DNA of 64,000 nt. Source: Flavobacteriales bacterium. Lineage in GTDB: Bacteria; Bacteroidota; Bacteroidia; Flavobacteriales; UBA7430. Below, one piece after another: positions 28,341 to 52,962 of the stretch. Position 1 is the stretch's first letter. Every line of letters starts with the position of its first letter. Location: contig NZJX01000019.1 in NCBI GenBank assembly GCA_002692065.1, positions 90,240-154,239 of the forward strand, written 5' to 3'. A program made the position numbers and the translations under genes. The notes beneath the pieces were generated by a model. That model had not been told where the DNA came from. It worked only from the letters and a program-made list of their open reading frames with translations, and did no database searches.

Positions 28341-29246
28341 ATGAAAAAATTTATTGTTGTTATTGCGGGGCCAACAGGAATTGGTAAGACAAATCTTTCT
28401 GTTTTTCTCGCAAAAAAATTTAATACTGAAATAATTTCATTTGATTCAAGACAATTTTACAAAGAAATATCAATTGGAACTAATGTACCAAGTAAATATT
28501 TTAGAAAAGAGGTTAAGCATCATTTTATTCAAAATATTAGTATATCAAATTCATATAGTATTGGAAAATATGAAAAAGATGCTCTAAAAACTATTAAAAA
28601 AATTCATGAAAAAAAAAATGTTATTATCATGGTTGGTGGTTCTGGTTTATATTTAGATGCAATAATTCATGGATTAGATTCATTTCCTAAGATTAAAAAA
28701 AAAAATGAATTATATGAACATTATAGAATTAATGGAATTGAATATTTAAAAAAAAAACTTAAAGAATTAGATGAAAACTATTATGATAAAGTTGATACCA
28801 ATAATCCCCAAAGACTTATTAGGGCTATAGAAGTTTGTATAGCATCTGATAAAACCTATTCCAGTTATTTAACTCACACAAAAAAAAAAAGAAAGTTTGA
28901 TGTAATTAAAATTATTCTTCAAGAAGAAAGAAATATACTGTACGAAAGAATAAATCACAGAGTAGATAAAATGATTAAAAAAGGCTTAATACATGAAGTA
29001 TCCAAAAATACAAAATACAGAAAATATAATTCACTTAATACTATAGGATATAAAGAAATATTTGAATATTTGGATGGAAATCAATCATTGTTAGGTGCTG
29101 TTGAGAAAATTAAACGAAATACCAGAAGATACGCTAAAAGACAAATTACTTGGTTTAAAAAATATAAATCAAATTCATTATTTACTAAAAGGGACAAAAA
29201 AAAAATTTTAAATTTTATTTTAGAAAAAATGAAAAATCAATTTTAA
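28341..29246 (+). CDS. miaA: tRNA dimethylallyltransferase
   Basis: 'VVIAGPTGIGKTNLSVFLAKKFNTEIISFDSRQFYKEISIGTNVPS', 'NNPQRLIRAIEV', 'NTRRYAKRQITWFKKY'. Confidence 0.96.
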   Translation: MKKFIVVIAGPTGIGKTNLSVFLAKKFNTEIISFDSRQFYKEISIGTNVPSKYFRKEVKHHFIQNISISNSYSIGKYEKDALKTIKKIHEKKNVIIMVGGSGLYLDAIIHGLDSFPKIKKKNELYEHYRINGIEYLKKKLKELDENYYDKVDTNNPQRLIRAIEVCIASDKTYSSYLTHTKKKRKFDVIKIILQEERNILYERINHRVDKMIKKGLIHEVSKNTKYRKYNSLNTIGYKEIFEYLDGNQSLLGAVEKIKRNTRRYAKRQITWFKKYKSNSLFTKRDKKKILNFILEKMKNQF

Positions 29247-47184: not shown

Positions 47185-47931
47185 ATGAATTCTTTAGAAA
47201 ATAAAACAGCAATTGTTACAGGAGGTACAAGAGGTATTGGTAAAGGTATTTGTTTAAAATTAGCTCAAAATAAAGTAAATGTTGTTTTCACATATCTTAG
47301 TTCCAAAGAGAAAGCATTAGAAATAGAAAATGATCTAAAAAAATTTGGTATAAAAGTGAAAGGAATAAAATCTGACGTTTCGAACTATTCAGAATGTGAA
47401 AATGTAATTGATTACATTAATGATAACTTTAATTCTATCGATATACTTATCAACAATGCAGGCATAACTAGAGATAACCTCCTAATGAGAATGACTAAGA
47501 AAGATTTTGATAAAGTTATTGATACCAACTTAACTTCGATTTTCAATATGACAAAAGTAGTTCAAAAGAATTTTCTTAAGCAAAGGTCAGGCTCAATAAT
47601 TAATATATCTTCAATAGTGGGTGTTAGAGGAAATGCTGGTCAAAGTAATTATGCTGCTTCAAAAGCTGGTGTAATTGGATTTACTAAATCCATCGCTTTA
47701 GAACTAGGTTCCAGAAATATCAGATGTAATGCAATTGCTCCGGGTTTTATTGAAACTGAAATGACAAAAGATTTAAAATCTGAAATTATTGAAAACTGGA
47801 AAAAATCAATCCCATTAAAGAAAACAGGTACTGTTGACGATGTTGCAAATACTGTTCTTTTTCTAGCTTCTGACATGTCAAAATTTATAACAGGTCAAAC
47901 TATAAGTGTATGTGGGGGAATGCTAACATAA
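47185..47931 (+). CDS. fabG: 3-oxoacyl-ACP reductase FabG
   Basis: 'TAIVTGGTRGIGKGI', 'LINNAGITRDNLLMRM', 'SSIVGVRGNAGQSNYAASKAG', 'NAIAPGFIETEMTK'. Confidence 0.94.
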   Translation: MNSLENKTAIVTGGTRGIGKGICLKLAQNKVNVVFTYLSSKEKALEIENDLKKFGIKVKGIKSDVSNYSECENVIDYINDNFNSIDILINNAGITRDNLLMRMTKKDFDKVIDTNLTSIFNMTKVVQKNFLKQRSGSIINISSIVGVRGNAGQSNYAASKAGVIGFTKSIALELGSRNIRCNAIAPGFIETEMTKDLKSEIIENWKKSIPLKKTGTVDDVANTVLFLASDMSKFITGQTISVCGGMLT

Positions 47932-47937
47932 TTTACG

Positions 47938-49999
47938 ATGCAAATAAAATTTGAATACTCAGAATTTTGGTTGATATTTTTTTTATTAATCAGTTTATTA
48001 TTTGCAATTTTTATTTATTACAAGGACTCAAGGTTTTCTAGTCAAAAAACTTTATTGAAAATTTGTTTAATCTTACTAAGATTCTTTTCTCTTTCTATTT
48101 TAATATTTCTTTTATTTAAAGCCAGGATAATAATAAAATCCAATACTTTTATTAAGCCTAAAATTGCTTTTTTAATTGATAAGTCTGCTTCAATAGTTCA
48201 AAACTACGACAGTTCTTATTATAAAAATGAATTTGAAAAAGTAATTGATTTCAATAACAAAATTTTGAATAAATCTTTCGATTTATTTGAATATGACTTT
48301 TCAAATAATATACATGGTAATAATAGCCTAAATTATGATGGAAAAGAAACTAATATATCTAAATCATTAAAAAATATTTATAATAAGTTTGAAGAAACTA
48401 ATTTAAATGCCATAATTCTTTGCAGTGATGGAATAATTAATAGTGGTAAAAACCCAATTTATGAAGTAAAAAATAAAAATATACCAATTTTCACTATTGC
48501 AATGGGAGATTCAATAAACTATCCAGATTTATCAATAGAAAATTTAACATACAACAATTATGTTTCAAGTGAAAATAAATTTCCAATCAAGTTTGATATA
48601 AAAAGTAATATTTTGAACATTAGGTCAAATTTAAAAATATATAGAGATGATGATTTAATTCATTTCGAAAAAATTTTAATAAATAAAAAAATTATTACAA
48701 AAAAAATTTATTTACAAAGTTCAAAAAACAAAAAAAACCAATTTTATAAAATTAATCTTGAGCCAATAAAGAATGAAAAAAATATTTTGAATAACAAAAA
48801 AGAATTTGGTAATGAAATAATCAATAAAAAACATAACATTCTAATTTTGTATAATCAACCTCACCCTGATATTGCCTCATTAAAAACATCCTTAGAAAAA
48901 AATAAAAATTATAAAATTCAAACTTCAGCGATAAAAAATTTTAAATCTAATTTTAAAAATTACAGTCTAATAATATTTCACAATATTCCAAATAAATACA
49001 GTACACATATAAATGAATTAAGTGAATTAAAATTTTTAAATATACCTAAACTCTTTTTCTTGGGTATAAATTCAGATTGGAAAGAATTTAATAACTTACA
49101 AAATTTCGTTAATATCGAGAGTAAAAAAGATAATGAAGAAACTTTCAATAATTTAAATTCAAATTTTACTCAATTTGATTTAACAAAAGGATTAGAAAAA
49201 TTTTTAACAAACTCTCCTCCAATTCTTTCTCCATCAGTTTCAACAATTTTTTTATCAGAAAAAAAGGTTTTACTTCAAAAAAAAATTGACAATGAAATTA
49301 TAGGTGATTTACTTTTTTTTTCTAATGATGAAAAGATAGGAATCTTTCTAGGAGAAAATATATGGAAATGGAAAATGTTTGACTATAGATTAAACAATAA
49401 CAATAAAAATTTTGATAATTTATTTTATAAGATTTGTGAAAATTTGAAACTAAGAAAAAAAGTTGATAAATTAAATATTACTTACCCTAAAATATCAAAT
49501 AATGAAGTATTTAGAATTACTGCTAATCTATACAACGACAATTATGAAATTGTCACTGATAGTGAAGTTTCGATTGATATATATAAACAAAATGAGCTTA
49601 TTTTTAATTCTAAGTTTGAATGTATTGACTCCTTTTTTGTATTTGAATCAAGTTTAATTGAAGGAGAATATGAATTTCATGTTAATTCTAATTATAAAAA
49701 TGAAAAGCTTGTAAAAAAAGGTAAAGTGAAAGTACTCAAATATTCGAAAGAAAAAAAAAAATACAAAGTCAAATTGGAACTTACTTAGACAAATATCTAA
49801 AGAAAGTAATGGAGAATTTATATCAAAAAATGAAATACCTAACTATTCAGAAATTGTTATCAATAAACTAAAAATAGAAAATTTCAATAATTTTAATGAA
49901 GAAGTAAAGTTTTTTATTGAAGAAAAATTAATCTTTTTATTACTTTTGCTAAGTCTTTCAATAGAATGGCTCATTCGAAAAAGACTAGGAACATATTAA
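47938..49999 (+). CDS. BatA/vWA-like membrane protein, frameshifted at a poly-A tract (first frame 47938..49788; C-terminal continuation to 49999 in another frame)
   Basis: N-terminal TM segments, vWA-like 'PKIAFLIDKSASIV...NAIILCSDGIINSGKNPIYEVKNKNIPIFTIAMGDS'. After the 11-A run at 49751..49761 the other frame encodes 'TKSNWNLLRQISKESNGEFISKNEIPNYSEIVINKLKIENFNNFNEEVKFFIEEKLIFLLLLLSLSIEWLIRKRLGTY*', the typical C-terminus of this family. Confidence 0.85.
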
Positions 50000-50018: not shown

Positions 50019-50828
50019 ATGAATCAAAAAATTAACCCCATTTTATTAATAGCTGGAACTATTTTCTTAATACTTTTCACCTTAGGATCTTCAATAACAT
50101 ATACAGTTCAACCAGGTGAAAGGGCAATAATTTTTAGAAAATTTACCTCAGGATTAGATAAAGAAAATATTTATCAACCTGGTTTTCATTTTATAGCACC
50201 ATGGAATAATGTTTTTATTTATGAAGTAAAAGAACAGAAAGTTGAAGAAAGTATGGATATTCTTGATAAAAATGGATTATCGATGAATATTGAAATTACT
50301 GTTCGATTCAATCCTACTTATTCTAGAATTGGTTTTTTACATGAAGAATTTGGATCATCTTATGTAGATAGACTAGTTATCCCGGAGGTTAGATCATCTG
50401 CTAGAAAAGTAATGGGAACATATGAAGCAGAAGAGATTTACTCTACCAAAAGAAATGAAGTTGAGACTGGTATTATCGAAGAAACTAAAAAAGTCTTAGC
50501 TGATAATAATGTCGATGTAAAGGCTCTTTTAATAAGGTCAATTAAATTACCAGAAAAAATTCGACAAGCAATTGATGATAAACTAAAACAAGAACAAGAA
50601 GCAGCAGCTTACAGATATCGACTAGAAAAGGAGGCATCTGAGGCTCAAAGAAGAAAAATTGCTGCTGAAGGAGAAGCTACAGCTAACAAAATAGTAAATA
50701 ATTCTTTAACTCCTAACTTATTAAAAATGAGAGGAATTGAAGCAACAATTGAGTTATCTAAATCTAGTAACTCCAAACTAGTTATTATTGGTGGGGAAGA
50801 TGGTATGCCATTAATTCTTAATCCATAA
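50019..50828 (+). CDS. Prohibitin/SPFH (band 7) family membrane protein
   Basis: Single N-terminal TM; 'YTVQPGERAIIFRKFTSGLDKENIYQPGFHFIAPWNNVFIYEVKEQKVEESMDILDKNGLSMNIEITVRF...RRKIAAEGEATANKIV'. Confidence 0.92.
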   Translation: MNQKINPILLIAGTIFLILFTLGSSITYTVQPGERAIIFRKFTSGLDKENIYQPGFHFIAPWNNVFIYEVKEQKVEESMDILDKNGLSMNIEITVRFNPTYSRIGFLHEEFGSSYVDRLVIPEVRSSARKVMGTYEAEEIYSTKRNEVETGIIEETKKVLADNNVDVKALLIRSIKLPEKIRQAIDDKLKQEQEAAAYRYRLEKEASEAQRRKIAAEGEATANKIVNNSLTPNLLKMRGIEATIELSKSSNSKLVIIGGEDGMPLILNP

Positions 50829-50881: not shown

Positions 50882-52962
50882 TCATCTATATTTTTTGTTG
50901 AAAATTGACAAAAGTAGACTCCAGTGGGTAAGCCTCTGACATCTATTTCAATACTATTTGTTTTGTTTTTGAAATTAAATACCTTTATTTCTTTACCATA
51001 ACTATTAATAATAGTCACATTTATATCATCATAATTATTTGTCATTAAACTTAATTTTAAAATATCTTTTGAAGGAATAGGATAAATTTTAAAATTATTA
51101 GTTTTTATTTCACTATTTATAAGGGGAAATTCTGTAGTGAAATAGATACTTATTTTTTCCCCAAAATCGTCTGGAAATCTTTTAAATAAACTCCCACCTA
51201 TTTCTCTTAATTGAACTCTCCCTGCACCTGAAGCTGATTCACCTGAATACCAATGTTCATTTATTCCATCTTCAGCAGAATCGTAGAAAACTAAATTAAA
51301 ACAGCCAATTGGTAAATTAACTGTATCTCTATACCAAGTTCCAGGTTCAAAATTTCCAGAATTTCTCTCGAATACTATGTTACCCTGATCATCGTATATT
51401 AAATATGAATTTTGATTTGCTCTATCAATTCCCTGAAAATCATTTTGAGATCTATATTCAAACATGAAGTTTTGAGGAAAAACTTCTGGTATTTCTATAT
51501 CTGAAGTTAATGAATTATTAGATTGATATTCATCATCATCTACAACTACTGTAGCTATAAATTTTGAATTATTCGTAATATTATTCCAATTTGGAGTTGG
51601 TAATTCAATTGAAATAATTTCAAGGGGATTTATTATTCCATTCCAAGTATATAAATCTAATTCATTTCCTATTATACCGTATCTTATTTTAGCATTGGTT
51701 ATGATTTGATCGCCTCTATTTCTTATCTTGATCATTGGGTTTAAACATGTTGGATTTAACCTACTCCATTCATCTTTTATACTTGGCTTTATAATATCGT
51801 ATAACTCTAAGTCAACTCCAAAATTAAATTCATCATATGTAACTAAAACATTTGATAAGATATATGTTCCATTTGATTCTCCATTGTTTGAATATTCTTG
51901 AATACCATAATCTATAATATTAAAATCATCATAAATCAAATTTTCAGAAATATCAATGTAGTTTTTTGTGACAGCCTCGCCAGGGCACCATCCAGCCCTA
52001 TCAAATGGCCAAGTACCACCTTGGGGGTAAACAGAAATAAATCCACAGTCATTCCATGCAGTCCATGTGTTTACCTCAGATCCATTTATATTTATATTAT
52101 GAAATTTGGGAATCCATTCACAACAACTCTGAGGTCCCTCATGACCATGTCCTGAGACATAATTAATTATTGCTGAACCTTTGATATCATTCGAAAAAAA
52201 CTTTTGATAAGGAGGAAAATTAATGTTATCAGATAAACTTTCATATGAATAACTCCCCGGAGGATATATATTTTCGACACTGATGACATTTCTAGGAGGA
52301 ATTCCATTTATAAAATGAAAATCAATTGATGCACTAAAACCACTGGTCCATCCATCATAATGAACTCTGATAATAGATGAATCAGAAAGTAAAGGAGCAA
52401 AATCAGTAATATCAAAATTATATTTATGAGTCCAATCATCGTCATATAAATCATTCACATCTGAAGATAAATCCCAATCCATATAATTTCCATATGGAGT
52501 TATGAGTCTCCCAATTTCGTACTTTTCAAATTGATCATAATAATTCCATGTTGTATCTAAAACTAATAATTCATTTTGAAGAGTATCAATTATTAGGATT
52601 GAATCTGTAATTAAATTCGGATCAATATTAGACTGAAACTGGTACTGCCAAAGAGAATCAAATAAAAAAGGATTATAGCTAATTGTATCTATCGAAATAA
52701 TTGATGAATCAAGTAACCCATTTGACTTCATTAAATAAACATTTACAGTATAGTCCCAGTGAGAACATCCTCCATCAGCACATCCTAAATTAAAGTCCAT
52801 TAAAATTTTTTCAAAATTGTTTTGATTTGGAAATTGAACATAATTATCATAGTCTCCATACCATGTTAATTGAGTATTTTGATGGGAATTAATTGTAATA
52901 GTGTCATTTTGTGATAAAAGAAAAATAGGGATAAAATAAAATATATTTAAGTATTTAATCAT
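50854..52962 (-). CDS. Secreted PNGase F-like (peptide-N-glycosidase F-related) protein with T9SS type A sorting domain
   Basis: 'LTWYGDYDNYVQFPNQNNFEKILMDFNLGCADGGCSHWDYTVNVYLM', 'GHGHEGPQSCCEWIPKFHNININGSEVNTWTAWNDCGFISVYPQGGTWPFDRAGWCPGE', C-terminal 'NFKIYPIPSKDILKLSL...GVYFCQFSTKNIDEIKKFIIVE'. Confidence 0.88.
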   Translation of the reverse strand: MIKYLNIFYFIPIFLLSQNDTITINSHQNTQLTWYGDYDNYVQFPNQNNFEKILMDFNLGCADGGCSHWDYTVNVYLMKSNGLLDSSIISIDTISYNPFLFDSLWQYQFQSNIDPNLITDSILIIDTLQNELLVLDTTWNYYDQFEKYEIGRLITPYGNYMDWDLSSDVNDLYDDDWTHKYNFDITDFAPLLSDSSIIRVHYDGWTSGFSASIDFHFINGIPPRNVISVENIYPPGSYSYESLSDNINFPPYQKFFSNDIKGSAIINYVSGHGHEGPQSCCEWIPKFHNININGSEVNTWTAWNDCGFISVYPQGGTWPFDRAGWCPGEAVTKNYIDISENLIYDDFNIIDYGIQEYSNNGESNGTYILSNVLVTYDEFNFGVDLELYDIIKPSIKDEWSRLNPTCLNPMIKIRNRGDQIITNAKIRYGIIGNELDLYTWNGIINPLEIISIELPTPNWNNITNNSKFIATVVVDDDEYQSNNSLTSDIEIPEVFPQNFMFEYRSQNDFQGIDRANQNSYLIYDDQGNIVFERNSGNFEPGTWYRDTVNLPIGCFNLVFYDSAEDGINEHWYSGESASGAGRVQLREIGGSLFKRFPDDFGEKISIYFTTEFPLINSEIKTNNFKIYPIPSKDILKLSLMTNNYDDINVTIINSYGKEIKVFNFKNKTNSIEIDVRGLPTGVYFCQFSTKNIDEIKKFIIVE

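Follow-up and report, generated by a model that had tools for sequence, protein, structure and literature searches.

A frame change at an A11 run in a gene for a VWA-like membrane protein most likely reflects a miscounted run or a mixture of strains in a draft assembly

In the stretch of 64,000 nucleotides analysed here (the window), the reading frame of a gene for a VWA-like membrane protein changes at a run of eleven A's, and this change very probably comes from a one-base error in the length of the run, or from a mixture of strains, in the draft assembly. If so, the gene would be an ordinary one of ~695 codons, intact in the organism; its A run would have become one base too long in the consensus, either by a homopolymer miscall or by the merging of strain variants at assembly, and the extra A would displace the 79 terminal codons in the written sequence only. 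The change of frame, the homologous C-terminus beyond it and the unreliable lengths of A runs at other loci of the window's own genome (G000) are observed. As for the run at 49751-49761 itself, we infer the miscount from those other loci of G000: the locus has one copy in the G000 assembly, and the sister G001, which is the closest genome compared (~95% DNA identity to G000), lacks the whole stretch by an assembly gap (the G001 contig C52 stops at 51251 of the window), so that the error is not demonstrated at this exact run. One-base errors of this kind can imitate recoding in AT-rich draft genomes.

The A11 run and the displaced C-terminus

The positions of the run, of the upstream ORF and of its stop, as first given in the initial annotation, were exact on re-reading (Table 1). 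The frame entered at 49760 is open up to 49996 and reads NTKSNWNLLRQISKESNGEF...EWLIRKRLGTY, and the remaining two frames past the run contain many stops. Orthologues were collected by protein search of 60 related genomes and of a second collection, and 32 of them were fetched and read through. Every one is open in a single frame (665-707 aa), and the displaced piece aligns to the final 76-79 residues of family orthologues, with E-values of 9e-21 to 1e-13 within the same family and weaker ones farther out. Thus, the annotation's description of a family-like C-terminus of about 79 codons in another frame is borne out by all 32 orthologues (best E 9e-21), and its remark that the downstream frame looks to be under selection was correct; gene body and displaced end alike are free of other decay. 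Comparison with the orthologues further indicates that the spacing of a conserved NW motif becomes gapless with A10, that is, with one A fewer. It is to be noted that no long A run lies at this site in the same-family orthologues, where A3-A6 is the most that is found (7 sequences). A contig scan for the gene in other genomes returned relatives at 27-29% identity only.

Table 1. Features at the locus, in window positions
Feature	Position	Strand	Remark
FabG-like short-chain dehydrogenase, preceding gene	47185..47931	+	intact; named from its own sequence
Upstream ORF, 616 aa	47938..49788	+	ends in out-of-frame residues past the A run
A11 run	49751..49761	+	point of frame change
Displaced C-terminal 79 codons and stop, +1 frame	49760..49999	+	final TM helix, then ..EWLIRKRLGTY
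TAG stop closing the upstream frame	49786..49788	+	24 nt past the A11 run
SPFH/Band-7 protein (HflK/HflC-like), following gene	50019..50828	+	intact

Long runs as such are not exceptional here. The window holds 27 runs of at least ten A's or T's against 20.7 expected by shuffling, which is normal for its composition, and two further A11 runs, at 28695 and 28880, are in frame within a 301-aa ORF (28341-29246), as had been stated. What is unusual about the A11 at 49751-49761 is that it alters the frame, not its mere length. A codon-score scan for frameshifts was dropped, for its flags fell mainly on shadow ORFs of the antisense strand, and the present gene was not among them.

Identity of the protein

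The 616-aa product has two predicted N-terminal TM helices, a VWA-like domain carrying D81-x-S83-x-S85, and further alpha/beta and Ig-like domains. Across 19 sequences D81 and S85 are invariant and S83 nearly so, while Pfam VWA_2 matches below its cut-off only. Judged from its sequence, the protein is therefore best called a VWA-like membrane protein of ~695 aa with a candidate VWA domain. The name BatA-like, proposed at first, is too specific: BatA gives just a weak match to the C-terminal piece (E 0.049), the protein is about twice as long as the BatA model (315 positions), and the adjacent genes are FabG-like and SPFH genes, not Bat or MoxR ones. A structure model of the 616 aa (mean pLDDT 81, pTM 0.45) gave fold matches of low TM throughout, the top one to the human oligosaccharyltransferase complex; the verdict makes no use of the family and fold matches.

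Frame breaks elsewhere in the genome

The genome G000 is an assembly of 1.65 Mb in 21 contigs (92.1% complete, 6.8% contamination), of which 829 kb, about half, was sampled in stretches, and genome-wide counts given here are those of samples. By inspection, about ten genes in the sampled part are split at runs of A7-A13: the present gene, murI and a DUF349-like gene at A11, a methyltransferase at A13, an aldehyde dehydrogenase at A10, an ABC transporter, an M1 peptidase and deaD at A9, a SPOR-like gene at A8 and mutS2 at A7. Names were read off the sequence except for murI, rplB and the DEAD-box helicase deaD, which were identified by search. In most of these genes the run has one A too many, while it is one A short in deaD and the M1 peptidase.

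Redundant overlapping contigs within G000 provide an internal comparison. They are 99.8-99.9% identical, with 0.1-0.2% of scattered substitutions, and the sets are L066/L086, L073/L094 and L088/L101/L103 (C7/C2, C10/C4 and C2/C5/C20, respectively). murI is broken with A11 on C4 and intact with A10 on C10 (266 aa), and deaD is broken with A9 on C7 and intact with A10 on C2 (571 aa). Hence both of the broken genes that have a second copy in the redundant contigs are intact in the other copy.

The sister genome tells the same. All five split genes that it covers (deaD, murI, the DUF349-like gene, the ABC transporter and the M1 peptidase) are intact there. Of the 275 G001 proteins with a counterpart, ten have a broken frame in the DNA of G000. 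In the opposite direction three of 300 came out broken; two of them trace back to those same lesions in G000 and the third is ambiguous, so at most one in 300 is broken in the sister. Two other G001 genes were seen in passing, a galE-like gene (L104:1414-1432), seemingly frameshifted without a long homopolymer, and a MauG/cytochrome-c-peroxidase-like gene (L118:5476-5504), seemingly split at an A8 run.

The assembly errs at places other than A runs as well. In rplB, a single-copy gene (G000 L070:7230-8051), a base is lost inside GGTGGAGG, outside any A run, and this lesion scrambles the conserved C-terminus of L2, although another frame still encodes it and the sister copy is intact. A cell could hardly survive such a lesion, and poly-A slippage is unable to repair it. 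A gene at G000 L098:12848-14461 has two frame breaks, one of them a 2-base gap outside a homopolymer, and its sister counterpart (L112:7495-9111) is open. Isolated N's number 406 in the 829 kb of G000 and zero in the samples of G001, G010, G007 and G004; none lies within the window. G007 was also considered as a control and gave no clean yardstick, having many breaks of other kinds: it shows (L144-L155) about 50 candidate frame breaks in 240 kb, mainly outside long homopolymers, as in a low-accuracy assembly.

The initial annotation had offered a homopolymer error of sequencing or assembly as one explanation, and the conflicts at murI and deaD, the rplB lesion, the roughly ten broken genes and the intact sister genes give that explanation strong support. 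Consensus homopolymer indels often frameshift genes in draft genomes (PMC9262707), and the present case resembles such errors of drafts and metagenomes in the one-base change, the intact orthologues, the many genes affected and the disagreement of gene copies. To compare redundant contigs and to look for frameshifts of ribosomal proteins outside runs is a cheap test. Nanopore errors in homopolymers are usually under-calls, unlike the sampled G000 lesions with their mostly extra A.

Can the extra A be real?

A real gain of one A in some or all cells, by which the gene would be recently inactivated or a minor allele would have entered the consensus, is improbable. The redundant contigs suggest co-assembled strains or unmerged overlaps, and their identity is what strain variants assembled together would give, so part of the variation may be true strain differences. 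Long A runs also mutate readily: among coding A/T runs that are orthologous and conserved in their flanks, one-base differences were found in 1 of 177 runs of length 8, 1 of 84 of length 9 and 4 of 18 of length 10. Such length-dependent disagreement is expected from miscalls and from real slippage alike, and it is a caveat to our preferred explanation that most other G000 lesions sit at A runs, as real replication slippage would also yield; the lack of N's in the window is another. A real mutation is opposed by the otherwise undecayed state of the gene and of its displaced codons, by the keeping of the gene in all orthologues examined, and by the larger number of breaks in G000 than in the sister, which together with the rplB lesion implicates the assembly.

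The other explanation offered at the outset was transcriptional slippage, by which a real and fixed A11 would let RNA polymerase produce some A10 or A13 transcripts, and full-length protein beside the truncated one. The precedent is tssM1 of Citrobacter rodentium, where an A11 with a stop 28 nt downstream gives transcripts with 10-15 A's and ~20-25% of full-length product (PMC4256274). It is a close mechanical parallel, with A11 upstream of a nearby stop, a membrane-protein C-terminus in the downstream frame and the same frame need, so the mechanism is physically possible; a run of at least about nine A's shortly before an in-frame stop is present here too, and the displaced C-terminus is undecayed. 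However, slippage in tssM1 was shown on proteins, with reporters and by the masses of transcripts, while here other lesions show the assembly to be unreliable at runs. The slippery run is also unconserved among the orthologues, and the change needed is -1 (or +2), whereas slippage at runs in Buchnera and E. coli was mostly insertion, with no restored frame observed (PMC5574713). The Blochmannia genes and the richness of the genus in A runs, both described below, speak for slippage; the intact sister genes, the depletion of long coding runs and the errors outside A runs speak against it. We consider this kind of slippage quite improbable, and the idea of two protein forms found no positive support.

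Even less probable is a wider version, in which the A11 is real and an AT-rich, small-genome lineage of Flavobacteriales expresses several one-base-shifted genes via poly-A slippage. In Blochmannia, eight genes are frameshifted at poly-A/T tracts (PMC3017870), and G000 is like it in being AT-rich and dense in A runs (as is its genus) with several genes one base off and otherwise undecayed. Some frameshifts in Blochmannia are common to several species, whereas the close sister of G000 is intact at all comparable split sites, and the G000 assembly errs where no A run could slip, as in rplB. Moreover, coding runs of at least 11 A's fall below synonymous shuffles (25 against 37.9 in G000, 11 against 26.0 in G001) and coding runs of at least ten T's are nearly absent (1 against ~14 shuffled in G000); selection thus acts against long runs, and this pattern does not point to a lineage that depends on them. 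Slippage is not needed to explain the present data, but if it were real in this gene, the poly-A rescue reported for insect endosymbionts would gain an example from a bacterium whose genome is larger.

Programmed ribosomal frameshifting at the run was discarded as hardly credible: A runs can be slippery for ribosomes, but A-rich heptamers typically favour -1, opposite to the +1 required here, and the run is unconserved while every orthologue is a single-frame protein.

A11 matches number ~75-83 per Mb in the genus (G000 and G001), ~21 in G007 and ~0-5 in most other family members; the GC content of 0.27, against 0.34-0.35 in sampled relatives, may account for most of this excess.
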